From Chakrabartia godavariana (lineage in GTDB: Bacteria > Pseudomonadota > Alphaproteobacteria > Sphingomonadales > Sphingomonadaceae): a DNA stretch of 64,000 bases. Where the stretch lies: assembly GCA_005518185.1 (NCBI GenBank), contig RKSN01000001.1:868501-932500 (forward strand), written 5' to 3'. Shown here one piece after another: positions 15,872 through 25,787 of the stretch (position 1 is the stretch's first letter; every line of letters begins with the position of its first letter). Under the pieces are notes generated by a model that worked only from the letters and a program-made list of their open reading frames with translations, made no database searches and was not told where the DNA came from. Made by a program: the position numbers and the translations under genes.

Positions 15872-17113
15872 TCAGGCCGTTGCTGGACGCTGCCCTCCGC
15901 TGCGACGGGCCAGAACACGCGGTGCGGTTTCCCGGAGACCCAGGCCAACCACGGCAGCCGTCAGCGTCAACGCCAGCATCATCCACATGACCGCCGACCG
16001 GCCATAGGCATCGGACAGCATCCCGGCCGCAAAGGGGCTGAGAACGCCGCCAAGGACTTCGCCAATGCCCATCACGATACCGGTGAGCGAGGCGGTGAGG
16101 CGCGGATCGACCGATTCCGACGGGATGGTCGCCATGAACAGCGGGAACACGCCGTTCAGCGCCCATCCGAAGAAGAAGATGGCCGCGAGCGCCCAGCTGC
16201 TGCCGGTGAAGAACATCGCGCCGAGCGGCAGGATGACGCCGAGGAGCGAGAAGCCGACGATCGATACCTTGCGGCCAATGAAGTCCGACAAGGCCGAGAC
16301 GGCGAAGCTTCCAATCCCGGCCGAAATGCCGAGTGTCGCCATCAGCCACTTGGTCGTGTCCGCGTCAAAGCCACGCTCATTCGTCAGATAGAGCGGCATG
16401 AAGGCCCAGCAGCAGACGAGGTAGGACACCAGCAGGATCGAGATGACCGAGCAGAGCTGCACGTTGCGATCGGCAAATGCCTCCTTCAGCGTGGCCGTCG
16501 GCGTGTCACCCGCATGGAATGCGGCGGCGTCGGGTTCCTTGACGAAGAACCAGATGATGGCCGCGCTGATCAGGCCTGGGGCGGCGGCGAGGAAGAAGGC
16601 TTCGCGCCAGCCATAGGCAATCGCGACCGGGATCAGGATCAGCGGTGCGGCGGCCGAGCCGAGCACGTTGGAGCCCAGGTTCTGGCCAACACCCATGGCG
16701 AGGCCGCGCTTGTCCTCATCGACTTCGGCGGCGATGATCGAATGGCTGACCGGCATGACGCCGCCTTCAGCCGCACCCATGAGCAGGCGGGCGCCAAGCA
16801 GCATCAGGAAGGAGGTCGCGACGCCCGACACGAAGGAGCACAGGCAGAAAGCGATTGTGGCGACGACGATGACCGGCTTGCGCGATCCCAAGCGGTCCGA
16901 AATGCGGCCCACGAGGAACCCGGCAATAGCCCAGGTGAGGGAGAGGCTGGAGGACAGCATCCCGACCTGCGTGTCGCTCAGCTGCAGGTCCGGCTGGACG
17001 TACGGCATCAGGAAGTTGAGGGCGTTCCGGTCAAAGAACAGGATCCCGAAGTTCAGGCTCAGGATGCCGACCAGAAAAGCCTGGTAGGCGCCGGACCGGC
17101 GTTGCTGCGTCAT
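15872..17113 (-). CDS. MFS transporter (aromatic acid/anion symporter-like)
   Basis: This 413-residue major facilitator protein has about twelve hydrophobic helices. The first half has the signature segment GFLVGRISDRLGSRKPV between helices 2 and 3, repeated in weaker form (ALSDFIGRKVSIVG) in the second half. FDRNALNFLMPYVQPDL in helix 1 is typical of the anion:cation symporter group, which carries aromatic and sugar acids. It lies between the AraC regulator and the VOC gene in the same direction. Inner-membrane uptake of the phenolic substrate is the likely role. Confidence 0.88.
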   Translation of the reverse strand: MTQQRRSGAYQAFLVGILSLNFGILFFDRNALNFLMPYVQPDLQLSDTQVGMLSSSLSLTWAIAGFLVGRISDRLGSRKPVIVVATIAFCLCSFVSGVATSFLMLLGARLLMGAAEGGVMPVSHSIIAAEVDEDKRGLAMGVGQNLGSNVLGSAAAPLILIPVAIAYGWREAFFLAAAPGLISAAIIWFFVKEPDAAAFHAGDTPTATLKEAFADRNVQLCSVISILLVSYLVCCWAFMPLYLTNERGFDADTTKWLMATLGISAGIGSFAVSALSDFIGRKVSIVGFSLLGVILPLGAMFFTGSSWALAAIFFFGWALNGVFPLFMATIPSESVDPRLTASLTGIVMGIGEVLGGVLSPFAAGMLSDAYGRSAVMWMMLALTLTAAVVGLGLRETAPRVLARRSGGQRPATA

Positions 17114-17202: not shown

Positions 17203-17742
17203 TCAGGCGAAAGGCCGTACCGGATCGGTGCCATCCCATCCTACCGACGCCGCCCAAAAGCGGGTGAAGACCTCATTCATGCCCTCATTTGCCGGGATGA
17301 GTTCCAGAAAGCCGGGGTCGTTCACGCCATTGTCGAGATAGGCGACAGCCCCGCCGGTCGGCACACCGGCGCGAAACGCGACCTCATATCCCTTGGCGGC
17401 ATAGGCCGCGATTTCGGCGTCGACATCATGCACCGCGACGCCGATATGGTGGAAGCCATAGCCGCGCTGATCGACGGTTTCCTTGTAGACCGACGGATTG
17501 TTATCGAGCGGCTGGATGAGTTCGATGCACATCGAACCGGCAAAGGCCATCGCAATGGAAACGTCCGCAGTCGACTTGGTCCCGCGATAGACATGGTCGT
17601 CTGCAAGGAAGTTATCGAGCAGGAACCAGGGCCCTGTGTTGGCAGAGTTGATCCACCAATTGATCGCGGCGCGGATGTCCTTGACGACATAGGCCGTCTG
17701 GATAACGCGGCCGACTTCCTGTCCAAATCCGAATGTGTTCAT
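17203..17742 (-). CDS. VOC (glyoxalase/bleomycin-resistance/dioxygenase) superfamily protein
   Basis: The product is 179 residues with one or two beta-alpha-beta-beta-beta modules. Metal-type residues are visible in GYGFHHIGVAVHD (tandem histidines near residue 99-100) and in GFLELIPAN (glutamate near the C-terminus). Family members include glyoxalases, methylmalonyl-CoA epimerases and ring-cleaving dioxygenases. Size fits a small lyase, epimerase or isomerase rather than an extradiol enzyme. Its start overlaps the stop of the following alpha/beta hydrolase gene by 4 bases, so the two are coupled. Specific reaction unknown. Confidence 0.8.
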   Translation of the reverse strand: MNTFGFGQEVGRVIQTAYVVKDIRAAINWWINSANTGPWFLLDNFLADDHVYRGTKSTADVSIAMAFAGSMCIELIQPLDNNPSVYKETVDQRGYGFHHIGVAVHDVDAEIAAYAAKGYEVAFRAGVPTGGAVAYLDNGVNDPGFLELIPANEGMNEVFTRFWAASVGWDGTDPVRPFA

Positions 17743-18473
17743 CGTTCGATATCCCTTGCGATTTTGAGGAGCGCGTCGGCGAGGTCTTGCGGACGCGACA
17801 GGAACGGGCTGTGATCCGCATCGAGCGTCGTGACCGACTGGCAGGGCTGCAGCGATTGCATCATGCGCTGATCCGCAATCGGGATCGTCCGGTCATGCAG
17901 GCATTCGATATAGTGGCGCGGCACTGAGCCATAGCGGCTTTCGGTCAGATTGAGCTCGGTCATGCGCGGCTGATCGGGCTCGGCCATCAGGCGATCGAAG
18001 GCGCGTTCGACGAGGTCCGGCGGGGACAGTTGCGCAAAGATCGGGGCGGCGTTGGCCCGGTCGATGACCGTTGCGATGCCTGAGGGATGCGGCTGCACAA
18101 TGGCGCGAAAGGCGGGGTTGGGCTCTGCGCGCTCACGCCACTGTTCACGGGACAGGCCGGACGGCAGCATCATCGCGCAGATATAGACCAGCGCCGCAAT
18201 TTCGGAGGGCACCCGCTCGGCCGTTTCGCTCAGGACAAGGCCGCCCCGGCTGTGCCCGCACAGGATGACCGGCTTTTCGGCCTTGATGCACAGGTCAGCG
18301 ACAAAATCGGCCCAGCGCGCGAGCGTGGCGTTGGCCAGCTCTTCCGGCGATCCGCCCATGCCGGGCAGGTCCGGCGCAATGACCGTGTGCCCCTGCGCCT
18401 CAAGCAGCGGCTGGATCAGCTCAAAGCTCCAGCCGCCATGCCAGGCCCCGTGGATCAGAACGAAGGTCGCCAT
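17739..18473 (-). CDS. Alpha/beta hydrolase (EstC-like)
   Basis: This 244-residue hydrolase has FVLIHGAWHGGW at the N-terminus, the nucleophile elbow GHSRGG and a C-terminal DADHSPF holding the catalytic histidine. It belongs to the same general group as the hydrolase at 3420-4088 but is not a close copy. It is coupled to the MDR gene upstream (1-base overlap) and the VOC gene downstream (4-base overlap), forming a three-gene unit. Ester or beta-diketone cleavage is possible. Confidence 0.85.
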   Translation of the reverse strand: MATFVLIHGAWHGGWSFELIQPLLEAQGHTVIAPDLPGMGGSPEELANATLARWADFVADLCIKAEKPVILCGHSRGGLVLSETAERVPSEIAALVYICAMMLPSGLSREQWRERAEPNPAFRAIVQPHPSGIATVIDRANAAPIFAQLSPPDLVERAFDRLMAEPDQPRMTELNLTESRYGSVPRHYIECLHDRTIPIADQRMMQSLQPCQSVTTLDADHSPFLSRPQDLADALLKIARDIER

Positions 18474-19489
18474 CAGAGCGTGATCACCGTCTTTCCGAAC
18501 AGGTCCGGCGAGGATTGATAGGCATAGGCGGCCTTGGCGTCGTCCATCGCAAAGGTGCGATCCACGACCGGCTTGATGCCATGCGTATCGACGAAGACGT
18601 TCAGCCGTTCGGCCATTCCGCGCGAACCGACGAAGATGCCGCGCATGCTGGCACCCTTGAACATCATCGCGTGCGGAGAGGTATCTCCTTCACGCGTCAG
18701 CACGCCGATCAAGGCAATTTCGCCGGCAAAGCCGACCGCCTGGATCGACTGGGCGAGAGTGCCTGCGCCGCCCACTTCGACGACATGATCGATGCCTTTG
18801 CCACCCGTGAGGCGCACGGCCTCTGCGCCCCAGGCGGGCGTCGCGCGGTAGTTGATGGTTTCATCTGCCCCGAGCGCGCGGGCGCGGGCGAGTTTCTCGT
18901 CAGATGACGAGGTCGCGATGACGGTTGCCCCGGCGGCTTTCGCAATTTGCAGCGCCAGAATTGAGACGCCGCCGGTTCCGAGCACCAGCACGGTGTCGCC
19001 CGGCCGTGTCGGGCGGGGCCCTTCCATCAGCGCGTTCCAGGCGGTGACGCCGGCGCAGGGGAGGGTGGCGGCCTCCTCAAAGCTCAGGCTATTGGCAATG
19101 TGCACAACGCCCTGTTCGGGCAGGACGACATATTCGGAAAGCATCCCATCTGCGGGCGGCGCGCCCAGTGCGGGCCCAGCGGCGGGATTGGCAGGGCCAT
19201 CTTCCCAGTTCTGGAAGAACGTGCCGCCCACCCGGTCACCAATGGCAAAGCGCGTCACATTCGCGCCAACCGCTGTGACTTCCCCGGTGCCGTCGGACAA
19301 GGGCACGGTATCGGCACCAATCGTGCCGCCCATATATCTGCCCTGCGGGATCAATTGGTCACGGAAGTTGAGGGAACAGGCGCGCACGCGGATCTGCACT
19401 TCGTTCGGTCCGGGGTGCGGGATGTCGCGTTCGACAAGATGCATGTCATCAAGCGACGATGCGCCAGCGTTGAGTAGCCAAGTCTTCAT
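18473..19489 (-). CDS. Zinc-independent MDR oxidoreductase (quinone reductase-like)
   Basis: This 338-residue medium-chain reductase has the cofactor motif GTGGVS and SSSDEKLARARALGADETINY. It lacks the GHE catalytic-zinc motif and the four-cysteine lobe of classical alcohol dehydrogenases. It therefore belongs with NAD(P)H:quinone or enoyl reductases of the MDR superfamily. The ATG at 19489 follows GGGAGAG. It is the first gene of the MDR-hydrolase-VOC unit, 82 bases downstream of the IclR gene. Reduction of an enone or quinone methide is plausible. Confidence 0.87.
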   Translation of the reverse strand: MKTWLLNAGASSLDDMHLVERDIPHPGPNEVQIRVRACSLNFRDQLIPQGRYMGGTIGADTVPLSDGTGEVTAVGANVTRFAIGDRVGGTFFQNWEDGPANPAAGPALGAPPADGMLSEYVVLPEQGVVHIANSLSFEEAATLPCAGVTAWNALMEGPRPTRPGDTVLVLGTGGVSILALQIAKAAGATVIATSSSDEKLARARALGADETINYRATPAWGAEAVRLTGGKGIDHVVEVGGAGTLAQSIQAVGFAGEIALIGVLTREGDTSPHAMMFKGASMRGIFVGSRGMAERLNVFVDTHGIKPVVDRTFAMDDAKAAYAYQSSPDLFGKTVITL

Positions 19490-19571: not shown

Positions 19572-20366
19572 TCAGTTGGCCTCGAGCGCCTGACCGATGC
19601 GATCCGCGATGCTCTGCAGCGTGTCGAGATGCCGCGATACGACATCCTCCACACGGACGCGACGGCTCGGCCAGGTGACGTTGATCGAGGCAACAGCATG
19701 GCCGTTGGTCATGACGGCGACGCCAATTGACGTCTTGCCGTCGCGCAGGACAGTCTGGCGATTGCGGTCGGGCCAGGGATGGTGCGGCTCGCGGGTGGAA
19801 TAGCCCCGCGTCCGCGTTTCGGCGATGATGGTGTCGAGCAGTTCGCGCTCTTCCGTTGTCGCGTTCTCGGGCTGGAGACGCGCAATGATGGCCTCGCGCT
19901 CGCGCGCGTCGCAGGCGGAGAGATAGGCCCGGCCTGTCGCTGTGTGCAGATAGCTGAGTTTGACGCCGACCGGGCCGAGAATGGCCGAATCGAAGCGGGC
20001 CAGAGGGCTGTTGGTCTCGATGATTTCCACATGGTCCATGCGCGGCACCGCGATGATGGAGGGCCATACGACCCGCTCGCTCAGTTCCACCATGAAGGGC
20101 GATGCAATTTCGGCGAGGCGCTCCGTCACGTCGGAACGGCGGCCTGGGGAGGCAAGCGCGGTGGGCAGATAGGCGCCATCGGCCAGACGCTGCCAGACAA
20201 GCCCGCGCGACGACAGCGTCACGAGCAGGCGAAGGAGGGTCGCCTTGGCGAGCCCCAGCCGCAGATGCAGTTCGTGCAGACTGATGCCGCCGCTCCGCTG
20301 CACTTCCAGCAAGACGTCAAGTCCGCGCTCCAGGGCACGGATGGATTTGACCTTCCGATCAATCAT
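19572..20366 (-). CDS. IclR-family transcriptional regulator
   Basis: This 264-residue protein has an N-terminal winged helix (SLHELHLRLGLAKATLLRLLVTLSSRG region, residues about 25-50) and a C-terminal IclR effector domain containing RTRGYSTREP and IGVAVMTNGHAVASINV. It is divergent from the Tm-1-like/carboxylase operon across about 105 bases that contain palindromes. IclR regulators commonly control aromatic catabolic operons, so control of the carboxylase operon, and perhaps of the MDR unit downstream on its own strand, is likely. The effector is unknown. Confidence 0.88.
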   Translation of the reverse strand: MIDRKVKSIRALERGLDVLLEVQRSGGISLHELHLRLGLAKATLLRLLVTLSSRGLVWQRLADGAYLPTALASPGRRSDVTERLAEIASPFMVELSERVVWPSIIAVPRMDHVEIIETNSPLARFDSAILGPVGVKLSYLHTATGRAYLSACDAREREAIIARLQPENATTEERELLDTIIAETRTRGYSTREPHHPWPDRNRQTVLRDGKTSIGVAVMTNGHAVASINVTWPSRRVRVEDVVSRHLDTLQSIADRIGQALEAN

Positions 20367-20375
20367 GGCAAAACC

Positions 20376-20439
20376 TGTTTCACGCGGTGCAACTAGCCGC
20401 TCGGATTTGATTAGGCAATCGCGGACGAATGTGAAACAT
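20376..20439. promoter_or_regulatory. Candidate IclR operators in the divergent intergenic region
   Basis: Two symmetric elements are visible. One at 20377-20393 is GTTTCAC-GCG-GTGCAAC, a 7-base inverted repeat with one mismatch. The other at 20429-20439 is ATGT-GAA-ACAT, a perfect short palindrome. The 8-mer TGTTTCAC (20376-20383) also recurs inverted as GTGAAACA (20431-20438). The sites lie just upstream of the IclR gene and 33 bases upstream of the Tm-1-like gene start. They are plausible regulator sites; binding is untested. Confidence 0.5.
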
Positions 20440-20471
20440 CGCCGCGCATAACGGAGAGGATGAGCGGCACC

Positions 20472-21683
20472 ATGTCAGGCCCCAATGTCTTGTTGATTGT
20501 CACGCAGGATACCAAGGAACAGGAGGCCGCCTATGTGCGCGGCATTCTGGAGGAGGCGGGCTGCACCGTTCTCCATCTTGATCCAAGCATTCGCCGCACG
20601 GTCGGCGGTGCGGAGATTTCGCCAGAGATGGTGGCGGAGGCCGCTGGGCATACCATCGAACAGGTTCGTGCGCTCGGCCATGAAGGCAAGTGCCAGGCGG
20701 TGATGACCGAAGGGGCCGTCAAATGTGCGCTAGATGCACATGCCCGGATCGGTCTGTCCGGCGTCCTGTCCATCGGCGGGTCGATGGGGACTGGACTGGC
20801 CGGAACGGTCATGCAGGCTCTGCCTTATGGCCTCCCCAAGCTGATCGTCTCGACGATGGCCTCAGGCTTTACCAAGCCGTATCTCGGCGTGAAGGACATC
20901 GCGATCATGAATGCGGTGACCGACGTGTCGGGCATCAATTCGATCAGCGGCGAAGTCTATCGCAACGCCGCCCTTGCCGTCGCTGGCATGGCGAAGGGCT
21001 ATACGCCGAGTGCACCGGCACAGAAGCCGCTTGTTCTCATGACGACGCTCGGCACCACCGAAAAGAGCGTGAAGCCGATCCGTGAGGCGCTGGAGGCCGA
21101 CGGGTGCGAGGTGATGGTCTTCCATTCCTCGGGTGCTGGCGGTCCCACGCTCGACGGCATTGCGGCCGAGCGGGACGTGGCGCTCGTCCTGGACCTGTCG
21201 CTGACCGAGATTCTAGACCATCTCCATGGCGGGCTTGCGGACTCCGGTCCTGACCGGTCGAAACCCGCGCTGGCGCGGGGCATTCCGGTCGTGTTCGCGC
21301 CCGGCAATGTCGATTTCATCATCGCCGGCCCGATTGACGTCGCGCAGCGGCAATTCCCGGGCAAGAAGTACCATATTCACAACCCGGCGCTGACCGCTGT
21401 CCGCACCGACCTTGAGGATCTGAAGCCGCTTGCCGATCATGTCGCCGCGCTGTGCGCCGACGCCAAGGGGCCGGTCAGCTTCTTTGTGCCGCTGAAGGGC
21501 TTTTCGAACCACGACAGCCCCTATGGCCATATCCACGACCCAAGCATTCCCGGCCCCTTTGCCGACTATGCGCGCGGCGTCATGCCCAGCAATGTCGAGT
21601 TCCGGACGATCGATGCGCATTTCAACGATGATGCATTTGCGGACGCGGTGATCGCCAAGGCACGGGAGCTGCTCGCGCGATGA
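20472..21683 (+). CDS. Tm-1-like ATP-binding protein (UPF0261); candidate hydroxyaryl-ketone kinase component
   Basis: This 403-residue protein (407 from the ATG at 20460, which abuts the GGAGAGG site and so is less likely) matches the UPF0261/Tm-1-like family. Diagnostic blocks are VLSIGGSMGTGLAGTVMQALP, PKLIVSTMASGFTKPYLG and AVTDVSGINSISGEVYRNAA, followed by a second domain beginning VLMTTLGTTEKSVKPI. The N-terminal domain of plant Tm-1 binds ATP. Plant Tm-1 continues into a TIM-barrel domain; that part is absent here and I find no gene for it in the window. It is first in an operon with a biotin-dependent carboxylase and an aryl-phosphatase-like HAD protein. This context suggests phosphorylation of a phenolic hydroxyl before carboxylation. 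That function is inferred. Confidence 0.85.
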   Translation: MSGPNVLLIVTQDTKEQEAAYVRGILEEAGCTVLHLDPSIRRTVGGAEISPEMVAEAAGHTIEQVRALGHEGKCQAVMTEGAVKCALDAHARIGLSGVLSIGGSMGTGLAGTVMQALPYGLPKLIVSTMASGFTKPYLGVKDIAIMNAVTDVSGINSISGEVYRNAALAVAGMAKGYTPSAPAQKPLVLMTTLGTTEKSVKPIREALEADGCEVMVFHSSGAGGPTLDGIAAERDVALVLDLSLTEILDHLHGGLADSGPDRSKPALARGIPVVFAPGNVDFIIAGPIDVAQRQFPGKKYHIHNPALTAVRTDLEDLKPLADHVAALCADAKGPVSFFVPLKGFSNHDSPYGHIHDPSIPGPFADYARGVMPSNVEFRTIDAHFNDDAFADAVIAKARELLAR

Positions 21684-22144
21684 CGACCGATTTGCCCCTG
21701 ACACCTGAAGATGTGAACGAGATCGCATCAATCCTCGACGGTTCGAACTATGACCGTCTCGACATCCGGACCCCGCGTTACCGGCTCCGCGTGGAGCGGT
21801 CAGGAGACGGCTGGTCGCAGGAATGGTCGCTCGACGATGCGGGCGAGGCGGCGGCAACGCCCACCGTTCCGGCCGCAGCGCCTGTAGCGGCGGTGCCCGA
21901 TGGGCTGGAAGGCATTGCAGCGCCGCTTCCTGGCACCTTCTACCGAGCACCTCAGCCCGGTGCGCCGCCCTTCGTTGCCGAAGGGGATGAGGTTGGGCCG
22001 GATACGGTCGTCGGGATCGTCGAGACGATGAAGCTCATGAACCCCGTCCATGCCGGCTGTCGTGGCCGCGTGGCGGCCATCTGCGTCGACAATGCGACCA
22101 TGGTCGATGGCGGCGCCATCCTCATGCACGTCAAGCCAGCCTGA
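21680..22144 (+). CDS. Biotin carboxyl carrier protein (carboxylase subunit)
   Basis: This 154-residue carrier begins with an ATGA overlap on the stop of the upstream gene. It has an N-terminal BCCP region, an Ala/Pro-rich linker (about 56-72, AAATPTVPAAAPVAAVP) and a biotinyl domain with VETMKLMN, where Lys118 is the biotin site. The variant AccB-like layout differs from housekeeping AccB in its short linker and its position with a dedicated biotin carboxylase and carboxyltransferase. It should shuttle carboxyl groups between the next two gene products. Confidence 0.93.
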   Translation: MTTDLPLTPEDVNEIASILDGSNYDRLDIRTPRYRLRVERSGDGWSQEWSLDDAGEAAATPTVPAAAPVAAVPDGLEGIAAPLPGTFYRAPQPGAPPFVAEGDEVGPDTVVGIVETMKLMNPVHAGCRGRVAAICVDNATMVDGGAILMHVKPA

Positions 22145-22146
22145 CC

Positions 22147-23484
22147 ATGATCCGTCGGCTGTTTATCGCCAATCGCGGGGAAATTGCGCTCCGCGTGATC
22201 CGGACCGCGCAGCGTCTCGGCATGACGACCATCCTTGGTGCGTCCGAAGCAGACGTTGCGAGCTGGCCAGCCCGTGCCGCTGATGAGGTGGTGGTCATCG
22301 GCCCTGGACCGTCACCTTTGTCCTATCTGTCGGTCGATGCCGTCATTGCGGCGGCCCGTGCGGCTGGCGCGGATGCGATCCATCCCGGTTATGGTTTCCT
22401 CTCTGAAAATGCTTCCTTTGCACGGGCAGCGGCGGCCGCAGGCATCCGTTTCGTCGGGCCGGACGTGTCGAGCCTTGAGGCGATGGGCGACAAGCTGATG
22501 GCGCGCCGCGTGGGCATAGAGGCGGGCCTGCCGGTGGTTCCGGGTGGAGAGGCGGCAGACAAGGCGCAGGCGCTTTTACGCGCGCAGGAAACGGGATTTC
22601 CGGTTCTCCTGAAGGCTGTCTCCGGCGGCGGCGGCAAGGGGATGAAGCGCGTTGATCGTGCCGAAGACTTGGAAGCCGCGATCGACATGGCGATGGCCGA
22701 AGCGCAGGCCGCCTTTGGCGATCCGCGCATCTATGTGGAACGCTTCATTTCCTCAGGCCGGCATGTCGAGGTTCAGGTGCTGGGTGACGGAGAGGCTGCG
22801 ATCCACCTTGGCACGCGCGACTGCTCCATCCAGCGGCGCTTCCAGAAACTCGTTGAAGAAGCGCCAGCTCCGGCCATCCCCGATGACAAGCGCCACGCCA
22901 TTGAGCAGGCAGCCGTCAATCTGGCGCGGCATCTCGCCTATCGGGGGGCAGGCACGGTCGAGTTTCTCGTCGATGCCCAAAGTTTCGATTTCTACTTCCT
23001 CGAAATGAATGCGCGCATTCAGGTCGAGCATCCGGTGACCGAAGAAATTACCGGCGTCGATCTCGTCGAGCAGCAGCTTTTGATTGCCGATGGACAGCGC
23101 CTGACGCTGACGCAGGATATGGTGGCACCCACGGGCCATGCCATTGAGGTGCGCATCAACGCGGAGAGCTGGGCCGACGATTTCCGGCCGTCTCCGGGTA
23201 CTGCGGCGACAGCTGCGTGGCCCGTTGGTCCGGGCATTCGCGTCGATACCCACATGCCCAAGGGCGGGGTCGTGCCACCATATTATGACTCGCTGCTCGG
23301 CAAGCTGATCGTGCGCGGGGCGACGCGGGAGGCGGCCGTCGAGACGCTGGCCTCCGCGCTTGACCGGCTCCGCATTGAGGGGATCGCCACAACCGCTGAT
23401 CTGCACCGGGCCATTGTGCGCGACGCGCGCTTTCAGGCCGGTGGCGTGGACACCCGTTTCTTCGAAGGGCTGAACAATGGCTGA
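22147..23484 (+). CDS. Biotin carboxylase subunit
   Basis: This 445-residue ATP-grasp enzyme carboxylates carrier-bound biotin using ATP and bicarbonate. It has the N-terminal FIANRGEIALRVIRTAQRLG region, PGYGFLSENASFARA, the glycine-rich ATP loop GGGGKGMK (about 160-167), and the catalytic segment ARIQVEHPVTEEITG around 289-303 with Arg290, Glu294 and His295. Length equals stand-alone AccC. Two bases separate it from the carrier gene, and it overlaps the carboxyltransferase gene by 8 bases. It is more likely a pathway-specific paralogue than the housekeeping AccC. Confidence 0.92.
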   Translation: MIRRLFIANRGEIALRVIRTAQRLGMTTILGASEADVASWPARAADEVVVIGPGPSPLSYLSVDAVIAAARAAGADAIHPGYGFLSENASFARAAAAAGIRFVGPDVSSLEAMGDKLMARRVGIEAGLPVVPGGEAADKAQALLRAQETGFPVLLKAVSGGGGKGMKRVDRAEDLEAAIDMAMAEAQAAFGDPRIYVERFISSGRHVEVQVLGDGEAAIHLGTRDCSIQRRFQKLVEEAPAPAIPDDKRHAIEQAAVNLARHLAYRGAGTVEFLVDAQSFDFYFLEMNARIQVEHPVTEEITGVDLVEQQLLIADGQRLTLTQDMVAPTGHAIEVRINAESWADDFRPSPGTAATAAWPVGPGIRVDTHMPKGGVVPPYYDSLLGKLIVRGATREAAVETLASALDRLRIEGIATTADLHRAIVRDARFQAGGVDTRFFEGLNNG

Positions 23485-24955
23485 GATTTCGCTTGTCGAC
23501 GTATCGATGCGGGACGGCAATCAGAGCCTGTGGGGCGCGACCGGCCTGAACACCGCCCAGATGCTCCAGATTGCGGGGCAGACTGACCGTGTCGGTTTCC
23601 GCGCGATCGACTTCACCTCGTCCAGCCACATGGCTGTCGCGGTTCGCTATTTCCAGAACAACCCTTGGGAACGCATTCGCCGCGTCGCCGCCGCCATGCC
23701 GCGCACGCCGCTCCAGTTCATCACAACAGGGCTGCGCTTCATTGCCTGGCAGCAGGCGGACCCAGAGTTCATGCGGCTCGTCTATCGGCGGCTTCAGGCG
23801 AACGGTATCCGTCGTTTCGTCATGCTCGACCCGATGCACGATGCCGAAGCGGTGATTGAGGCAGCGCGGATCGTCCGCGAAGAGGGCGATGCCGAGATCA
23901 TGGGGGCGCTCACCTTCACGCTGTCCGAGGTGCATACCGATCAGTTCTACGCCGATTTCGCGCGGAAGATTTGCACAAGCCCAGACATCGACCTCATCTA
24001 TATCAAGGACCCGGGCGGCCTCCTGTCGCCTGACCGCGTCCGCACGCTTGCGCCTGCGGTCAAGGCCGTCATCGGCAACCGTCCGCTTGAGATCCACGCG
24101 CACTGCACGATCGGCTATGGGCCGCTTTCCAGCCTTGCGGCCGCGGACCTTGGCGTCATTGATGCGGTCCATGTCGGCATCGGGCCGCTGGGGGAGGGAA
24201 GCTCCCTGCCGGAAGCCGCGCGCATGGTCGCAAACCTCCGCAACGCCGGGCATTCGGTGAATGTGGATGACGCGATGCTGGCCAGCGTCTCCGATTATTG
24301 GTGGCGGCTGGCCCGCGCGGAAAGTCTGCCCGCGGGAGTCCCGCAGGCGTTCGATTCCAGCTTCCTGCGGCATCAGATTGCGGGCGGCGTCATGACGACA
24401 ACGCGGCGTCAGCTGGAAGAGCTGAAGATGGGTGACCGGTTCGATGCCGTCGTCGCTGAGACCGAGCGCGTGCGCGCCGAACTCGGCTACCCCATCATGG
24501 TCACACCGTTCCCGCAGATGGTCATGAGCCAGGCGCTGTTCAACGTCATCGGGGACCGGCGCTATGCGCAGGTTTCGGATCAGGTGCTGCGCTATGTCAT
24601 GGGCAAGTTCGGTCACCCGACAAGCCCGATTGATCCGGCGGTGGAGGCGGCCATTCTGGACCGTCCACGCGCCCGTGAGATCGAGGTGGAGCCGATGTTC
24701 CCCGCTTATGTGGATCTGCGGCGCAAGTTCGGCGTGCACATGCCCGATGAGGAGTTCCTCCTGCGGGCGGTCATGCCGGAGGATCAGGTTGACGCCATGC
24801 TCGCCTCAGGACGGTCCCGCGCGACCTATTCGCCCGAGGCCGCGCCTTTGCTGCAATTGCTGAAAAAACTGGCGGCCAATCCGGCGGCGCGCAATCTTGT
24901 GGTCGAACGTCCCGGCCTGCGCATCGCCCTTCACGGAGGTGCGCATGTCGCCTGA
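23477..24955 (+). CDS. Carboxyltransferase subunit (pyruvate carboxylase/oxaloacetate decarboxylase CT-like TIM barrel)
   Basis: This 492-residue protein carries the HMGL/pyruvate-carboxylase carboxyltransferase barrel followed by a PYC_OADA-like region. Key residues are Asp8/Arg12-Asp13 in DVSMRDGNQS, Lys177 in YIKDPGG (the lysine carbamylated in pyruvate carboxylase) and the metal pair His207/His209 in EIHAHC. In known enzymes this domain moves carboxyl from biotin to a keto-methyl group. An aryl methyl ketone such as acetovanillone phosphate is a chemically similar acceptor. With the two preceding genes it forms a complete three-subunit carboxylase. Its end overlaps the phosphatase gene by 11 bases. 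Confidence 0.9.
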   Translation: MAEISLVDVSMRDGNQSLWGATGLNTAQMLQIAGQTDRVGFRAIDFTSSSHMAVAVRYFQNNPWERIRRVAAAMPRTPLQFITTGLRFIAWQQADPEFMRLVYRRLQANGIRRFVMLDPMHDAEAVIEAARIVREEGDAEIMGALTFTLSEVHTDQFYADFARKICTSPDIDLIYIKDPGGLLSPDRVRTLAPAVKAVIGNRPLEIHAHCTIGYGPLSSLAAADLGVIDAVHVGIGPLGEGSSLPEAARMVANLRNAGHSVNVDDAMLASVSDYWWRLARAESLPAGVPQAFDSSFLRHQIAGGVMTTTRRQLEELKMGDRFDAVVAETERVRAELGYPIMVTPFPQMVMSQALFNVIGDRRYAQVSDQVLRYVMGKFGHPTSPIDPAVEAAILDRPRAREIEVEPMFPAYVDLRRKFGVHMPDEEFLLRAVMPEDQVDAMLASGRSRATYSPEAAPLLQLLKKLAANPAARNLVVERPGLRIALHGGAHVA

Positions 24956-25787
24956 GATTCAAGATCGTATTCGTCACGCGCGCGGCTTCATCTTTGACAT
25001 GGACGGCACGATTGCGTTGGGCGACGCCGCTTCGGGCGGCCACGTCGCGCTGCCCGGCGCGGTGGCGTTCCTCGGCAAGCTGCGCGCCCTTGGAATCCCC
25101 TTTCGCGTCTTCACCAACGGAACGGCCAAGCCGCCCGCCGCTTATGCCGCGAGCCTGCGCAACGCCGGCTTTGATCTTGCCGATCATGAAATGATGACGC
25201 CGTCCTCCTCGGCGGCGATCTGGTTCGAAAAGCAGGGCATTCGCCGGGTGCGTGTGCTCGGCAATGCCGGTGTCGCCGCACCACTCAAGGACCGGGGCAT
25301 CGAAGTGGTTGGCGCGTCGGACGAGGGCGATGTCGAGGCGGTCTACACTGGCTGGTTTCGCGAGTTCACCTTCCCCGATCTGGAGGCGGCATGCCAGTCC
25401 GTCTGGGACGGGGCGACGCTGACAACCGCGAGCCACGTGCCCTTCTTTGCGACCGCAACCGGGCGCGGCATCGGGTCAAGCTTTGCGATCAACAAGATGA
25501 TTGCAGCGATGACGGGCAAGCAGGCCAAGGTTCTCGGCAAGCCGTCGCGCATCGCCTTTGACGCGGCGGTTGCCGCCATGGGCCTGCCGCGTGCGGCCGC
25601 GCGTGACATTGTCGTCTTTGGCGATGATCCTGCGCTGGAGATGCGCATGGCGCGCGGTGCAGGTGCTGTTGGCGTCGGCCTGACAACGGGCCTGATGAAG
25701 CGCGAAGCTCTGGCCACCTTGCCCGAGAGCCAGCAGCCGCATCTCTTGATCGATGATTACGCCCCCGTGATGCGTCTGTTCGCCTGA
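24945..25787 (+). CDS. HAD-IIA family phosphatase (NagD / p-nitrophenyl phosphatase-like)
   Basis: This is a 280-residue protein from the ATG at 24945, with GGAGGT 4 bases upstream; the frame is open to 24897. Motif I is FDMDGT with nucleophile Asp18 and Asp20, motif II is the FTNGT segment, a lysine follows in VLGKPSRIAF, and motif IV is FGDDPALEM. HAD-IIA members include aryl phosphatases and nucleotide or sugar phosphatases. As last gene of the carboxylase operon it would remove the phenolic phosphate after carboxylation, as reported for acetovanillone catabolism. The family assignment is firm; the substrate is inferred. Confidence 0.9.
   Translation: MSPEIQDRIRHARGFIFDMDGTIALGDAASGGHVALPGAVAFLGKLRALGIPFRVFTNGTAKPPAAYAASLRNAGFDLADHEMMTPSSSAAIWFEKQGIRRVRVLGNAGVAAPLKDRGIEVVGASDEGDVEAVYTGWFREFTFPDLEAACQSVWDGATLTTASHVPFFATATGRGIGSSFAINKMIAAMTGKQAKVLGKPSRIAFDAAVAAMGLPRAAARDIVVFGDDPALEMRMARGAGAVGVGLTTGLMKREALATLPESQQPHLLIDDYAPVMRLFA

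Follow-up and report, generated by a model that had tools for sequence, protein, structure and literature searches.

A predicted MarK-type hydroxyphenylethanone operon with a single UPF0261 kinase gene in Chakrabartia godavariana

A 64,000-nt stretch of Chakrabartia godavariana DNA (contig RKSN01000001.1, positions 868,501 to 932,500; hereafter the window) carries a biotin-dependent carboxylase operon headed by a UPF0261, or Tm-1-like, gene, and the question raised by this locus is whether that gene encodes a complete kinase for aryl ketones or one half of a two-protein kinase. An original prediction had proposed phosphorylation, biotin-dependent carboxylation and dephosphorylation of a hydroxyphenyl ketone, and had left three options for the lone kinase gene: a single-subunit enzyme, a partner encoded elsewhere or a different substrate. 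The proposed pathway is supported, and the single-subunit kinase is the right one of the three options: the kinase MarK of Novosphingobium aromaticivorans is single-component, and PDB entry 9mpy contains acetovanillone. We put at about 0.92 the probability that this is a MarK-type hydroxyphenylethanone operon, with lignin-derived phenolic ketones such as acetovanillone as its predicted substrates.

The operon and its kinase

Five open reading frames (ORFs), all open and complete, occupy positions 20460-25787 of the plus strand:

20460..21683, plus strand, UPF0261/Tm-1-like protein, predicted MarK-type single-component hydroxyphenylethanone kinase (407 aa; Pfam, 9mpy match, clade)
21680..22144, plus strand, biotin carboxyl carrier protein (BCCP; Biotin_lipoyl 6e-14, ETMK motif)
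22147..23484, plus strand, biotin carboxylase (BC) subunit (three BC domains, to 8e-69, Pfam)
23477..24955, plus strand, carboxyltransferase (CT) subunit, HMGL + PYC_OADA type (PYC_OADA 7e-23, HMGL-like 2e-10, Pfam)
24942..25787, plus strand, HAD-IIA phosphatase (Hydrolase_6 3e-20, Pfam; TIGR01460 HAD-SF-IIA is the best NCBIfam match but scores under its cut-off)

Pfam matches above curated cut-offs, including the UPF0261 N and C domains of the kinase (6.7e-55 and 2.6e-60), agreed with every name that the original prediction had given these intact frames, and the close packing it had described was found as a 4-bp overlap, a 2-nt gap, an 8-bp overlap and a 14-bp overlap, in gene order. The motif ETMK was found in BCCP, HxH and KDP in CT, and DxDGT and GDD in the HAD protein; we take the ETMK lysine to be the biotinyl lysine and the others to be CT and HAD motifs. 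A Shine-Dalgarno-like GGAGAGG ends at 20459, directly 5' of the first kinase ATG at 20460, and in a relative (L004) 11 nt separate the identical GGAGAGG from an ATG equivalent to window position 20472. Because of this spacing, the true start is probably 20472 (403 aa), as earlier proposed, rather than 20460.

We found that the window kinase matches 9mpy with an E value of 1.2e-183 and 67-69% identity. This entry is Saro_1862, a UPF0261 domain protein of N. aromaticivorans, with acetovanillone bound. In a kinase tree, 26 carboxylase-linked UPF0261 proteins (of 58; L070, which is short, and four rows with identical sequences were dropped, and L001, a copy of the window, was skipped) grouped with 9mpy in a single clade (SH-aLRT 100) that excludes 50 further UPF0261 proteins of alphaproteobacteria, and the window kinase belongs to this clade. 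The introduction of PMC13101465 describes N. aromaticivorans as using the single-component kinase MarK, which is probably Saro_1862. Its locus in strain DSM 12444 also has a single UPF0261 kinase, the identical five-gene order and a divergent IclR-ADH-VOC-MFS arm, a nine-gene neighbourhood common to both orthologous, syntenic loci; it differs in protein sequence (57-75% identity) and has no match for the alpha/beta hydrolase of the window's arm.

The original prediction had called the single component unusual, on the understanding that the known two-protein kinase joins a Tm-1-like protein to a TIM-barrel partner. That understanding was mistaken, and the single component is a published, MarK-type solution (PMC13101465, introduction; PDB 9mpy). 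HpeHI of Rhodococcus rhodochrous GD02 is described as two phosphoenolpyruvate (PEP)-synthase-like proteins, with HpeI resembling the ATP-grasp domain of rifampin phosphotransferase and HpeH its swivel and substrate-binding domains (PMC12167813), and acvABCDEF of Sphingobium SYK-6 is described as homologous and syntenous to hpeHICBAD (PMC9618137), which by homology makes AcvAB the same kind of dikinase. The words "Tm-1" and "UPF0261" are absent from the main text of both papers. Both systems likewise comprise a kinase, a three-part biotin carboxylase and a phosphatase; they differ in their dikinase (PEP-utilizers + PPDK_N by Pfam, from related loci), whose slot before the carboxylase is filled in the window by UPF0261. 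Because the two-protein kinase is this dikinase, nothing is missing from the operon.

The lone gene was found to be single in the whole C. godavariana genome (3.17 Mb, five contigs), which contains exactly one UPF0261 gene and no second, no match to the PF09370 TIM barrel and no HpeI-type protein, PPDK_N being confined to one 902-aa frame. N. aromaticivorans has no HpeI-type protein either, its PPDK_N being confined to two 912-aa frames. As in the MarK type, the operon links a biotin carboxylase of three subunits and a HAD phosphatase to a kinase with no second component, and it has no adjacent or fused TIM barrel of the Tm-1/TBST two-component type.

It is extremely unlikely that the UPF0261 protein is a half-kinase whose TIM-barrel partner is encoded elsewhere. 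Such an arrangement would be in keeping with the family, since PF09370 lies within 6 kb of 37 of 60 alphaproteobacterial UPF0261 genes and the two families are reported to co-evolve (PMC5028733); however, 23 of the 60, some near contig ends, have no PF09370 within 6 kb, the C. godavariana genome has none at all, and MarK is termed single-component. Left out of the 60 UPF0261 places were one that scored under the cut-off and two that are second pieces of a single gene; left out of the 50 PF09370 places were 8 weak ones, of which one (in G379) exceeds the cut-off but had been counted as adjacent already. Plant Tm-1 (PDB 3wrw, 3wrx and 3wry) carries an additional TIM-barrel domain and is described as inhibiting tomato mosaic virus replication (PMC5028733). 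The window kinase does not need a TIM-barrel partner.

We predict substrate, reaction order and the chemistry of each subunit as follows. The UPF0261 protein alone, with ATP, would phosphorylate the phenolic hydroxyl of acetovanillone or 4-hydroxyacetophenone, a step proposed because MarK is single-component and an orthologue was crystallised with acetovanillone. The biotin enzyme formed by BCCP, BC and CT would add a carboxyl group to the methyl ketone of this phospho-compound, giving a phospho-beta-keto acid, and the HAD protein would take off the phosphate, as we infer from HpeCBA and HpeD, respectively. The aroyl-acetate would then be split to vanillate or 4-hydroxybenzoate, which would enter the ring pathway via PobA and LigA-type proteins; both are encoded in the genome.

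That the chemistry runs as proposed on another natural substrate (acetosyringone, a 4-hydroxyphenyl alkyl ketone or a lignin-dimer product), with acetovanillone as a side substrate, is unlikely. The divergent arm varies between loci and the title of the MarK paper mentions multiple aromatic monomers, which fit such a substrate, but the 9mpy orthologue holds acetovanillone, and the bisphenol A plasmid context (below) fits 4-hydroxyacetophenone.

Several points weigh against a MarK-type hydroxyphenylethanone operon. An identity of 67-69% does not fix the substrate, and MarK is probably, rather than certainly, Saro_1862. The kinase fold was predicted at a pLDDT of 42 without an alignment and 89.5 with a 44-row alignment (the window protein and 43 of the 57 full-length proteins from the loci), and this model, placed on 9mpy with VIA-align, gave an rmsd of 9.3 and did not reproduce the domain arrangement. 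Sequence comparison with Hpe/Acv covers HpeI (PDB 9goj) against the protein of one relative (L012). No enzyme near the operon is assigned to the beta-keto-acid step, and BKACE was rejected for this step in the C. godavariana genome, where its sole match is distant (34% over 169 aa to the BKACE of plasmid pBAR1). On balance, the operon very likely adds a member to a system that was published only recently, so that a gene of an uncharacterised family becomes a predicted lignin-ketone kinase, here and in related sphingomonads. The chemistry was already published in 2022-2025, which limits the surprise; what merits following is the exchange of kinases and the connection to bisphenol A. Literature matches for UPF0261 with carboxylase were Brucella genome or virulence papers (title, abstract), not relevant here, and Tm-1-like, biotin carboxylase or pBAR1 appeared in none among the matches listed of a wider search.

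Two kinase types before one carboxylase

Genome contigs were scanned with the carboxyltransferase, which yielded 70 related loci. Fifty-nine retain 7.3 kb or more of DNA upstream of CT and were counted; the 11 others end at contig edges and were excluded. The kinase before the carboxylase was UPF0261 in 54 of the 59 and an HpeH + HpeI pair in five, with both or neither in none. A domain check of all five pairs (L012, L014, L030, L064 and L069) found PEP-utilizers + PPDK_N, and the HpeI-like protein of L012 matched the HpeI structure 9goj at 1.5e-74.

Kinase type required two changes on each of two trees, one of CT (38 rows) and one of BC+CT (36 rows, 29 of UPF0261 type and 7 of HpeHI type; L058 and L145 of the CT tree left out), both built from a hand-picked part of the 70 loci. 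Forcing the UPF0261-type rows of the BC+CT tree into one clade was rejected (approximately unbiased test, p 1.7e-5). These results show that two kinase types trade places before one carboxylase, with at least two changes; the exact swap history is less sure than this count, given the long branches of L144, L064, L143 and L105.

The constant pairing bears on what the carboxylase does. It is very improbable that it serves a CoA ester, pyruvate or acetone with the kinase unrelated to it. Among solved structures, CT is closest in sequence to pyruvate carboxylase subunit beta and oxaloacetate decarboxylase alpha, as that explanation would have it, but the carboxylase is linked to one of the two kinase types in 59 of 59 loci, and CT scores under the cut-off of every NCBIfam model matched, including pyruvate carboxylase and oxaloacetate decarboxylase. 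By Pfam, none of the five proteins has a CoA-type carboxyltransferase domain, CT matching PYC_OADA and HMGL-like only; the carboxyl_trans domain (presumably PF01039) of the geranyl-CoA/acetyl-CoA carboxylase type is absent from CT.

MarK-like genes are patchy, with matches in 19 of 397 genomes of the family (four weak, 28-35% identity) and in 53 of 195 genomes of the genus of G741 and G780 (two weak). A Sphingomonas metagenome-assembled genome, Aurantiacibacter xanthus and Sphingobium bisphenolivorans (L054, L055 and L056) share one identical kinase protein, and their operon coordinates and identities also agree, which points to either recent transfer between genera or contamination.

Plasmid copies and bisphenol A

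The operon was also found on plasmid pBAR1 of Sphingomonas bisphenolicum AO1. There it directly follows genes whose annotations read carotenoid oxygenase, aldehyde dehydrogenase, NTF2-like protein, thioesterase and 3-keto-5-aminohexanoate cleavage protein; pobA lies close by, and another part of pBAR1 carries a P450/ferredoxin pair. The plasmid regions concerned are L104 5572-16357 and L151 16534-18197, and besides the operon they hold carotenoid oxygenase, BKACE, thioesterase, pobA and P450/ferredoxin genes. We take it that the carotenoid-oxygenase-family enzyme would make 4-hydroxyacetophenone and that strain AO1 degrades bisphenol A, the latter in agreement with a passage of PMC6366072. A pBAR1-type cluster is also present on S. 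yanoikuyae pSYA3-2, and a more distant one lies on a Pseudomonas putida YC-AE1 plasmid, behind acetoacetate-CoA ligase.

Bisphenol A is described as being cut to 4-hydroxybenzaldehyde and 4-hydroxyacetophenone, the latter assigned to a route of hapA monooxygenase and hapB hydrolase, with hapA and hapB inactive in the Sphingomonas of that study (PMC6366072). YC-AE1 is a bisphenol A degrader reported to remove 4-hydroxyacetophenone fully within 24 h (data not shown there), and a 4-hydroxyacetophenone hydrolase gene is among those raised on bisphenol A (PMC9733184), which speaks against a role of the plasmid operon in that strain. The words "Tm-1" and "carboxylase" are absent from the main text of both papers, and we found no literature joining bisphenol A, 4-hydroxyacetophenone, Sphingobium and carboxylase. 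Judged from gene content, the plasmid operon would handle 4-hydroxyacetophenone, and pBAR1, a single mobilizable plasmid, possibly carries the greater part of a route for bisphenol A. A route for 4-hydroxyacetophenone in bisphenol A degraders is thereby made testable.

The divergent arm and UPF0261 genes elsewhere

The divergent IclR regulator of the original prediction was found where expected, heading an arm on the opposite strand (counts refer to the 59 loci):

20378..20392, no strand, TTTCAC-N3-GTGnAA palindrome, candidate IclR operator (IclR-UPF0261 intergenic conservation)
19572..20366, minus strand, IclR-family regulator (IclR_C 2e-8, HTH_IclR 3e-7; 45/59)
18473..19489, minus strand, zinc-type medium-chain dehydrogenase (ADH; Pfam; 46/59, with both kinase types)
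17739..18473, minus strand, alpha/beta hydrolase (Pfam; only 5/59)
17203..17742, minus strand, VOC/glyoxalase-like protein (Pfam; 41/59)
15872..17113, minus strand, MFS transporter, candidate for uptake (Pfam; 40/59)

Relatives of the alpha/beta hydrolase include pyrethroid hydrolase, salicylic-acid-binding protein 2 and methylketone synthase I.

We take N. aromaticivorans F199 to be strain DSM 12444. Because F199 is described as lacking VceA and VceB homologues (PMC11837543), ADH and VOC may be candidates for the aroylacetate (beta-keto-acid) step, a lead from few, related loci. BKACE and thioesterase are each present in 5 of the 59 loci at 40% identity or more, and together in four (L027 and L054-L056); L020 has BKACE together with a thioesterase at 37%, and L052 has the thioesterase without BKACE. 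All six of these loci lack the ADH arm.

Taken jointly, it is possible, though doubtful, that UPF0261/Tm-1 is a one-piece small-molecule kinase family that took the place of the unrelated HpeHI dikinase in the carboxylase operon and was in turn replaced by it, that bisphenol A mineralisation in reality handles 4-hydroxyacetophenone through the plasmid module and not through the published Baeyer-Villiger (hap) route, and that the ADH-VOC arm holds the aroylacetate-cleaving step of N. aromaticivorans.

The strict palindrome TTTCAC-N3-GTGnAA occurs in 26 of 46 IclR-UPF0261 intergenic regions, compared with 0.01% of shuffled copies, and a relaxed form (TTTCAC-N3-[GAT]TGnAA), chosen after viewing the sequences and outside the shuffle control, in 44 of 46. 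This conservation is owed in part to common descent, the loci being related. The C. godavariana genome has two exact strict sites, at this promoter and inside an ORF, and the exact strict pattern revealed no further IclR targets there.

Long UPF0261 ORFs were considered as TIM-barrel fusions, and this was rejected; the three scanned are ABC-ATPase fusions. In these alphaproteobacterial loci (L074, L083 and L091), UPF0261 is fused behind an ABC-transporter ATPase domain, with a PF09370 TIM-barrel gene close by. Four further loci (L111, L113, L117 and L118) have UPF0261 with no TIM barrel within 6 kb and mostly catabolic or transport neighbours, among them P450, glutamine-synthetase-like ligase, HpaB, TctA/TctB transporters, aldehyde dehydrogenase, FAD reductase and M24 peptidase. 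These contexts suggest further substrates for the UPF0261 family.
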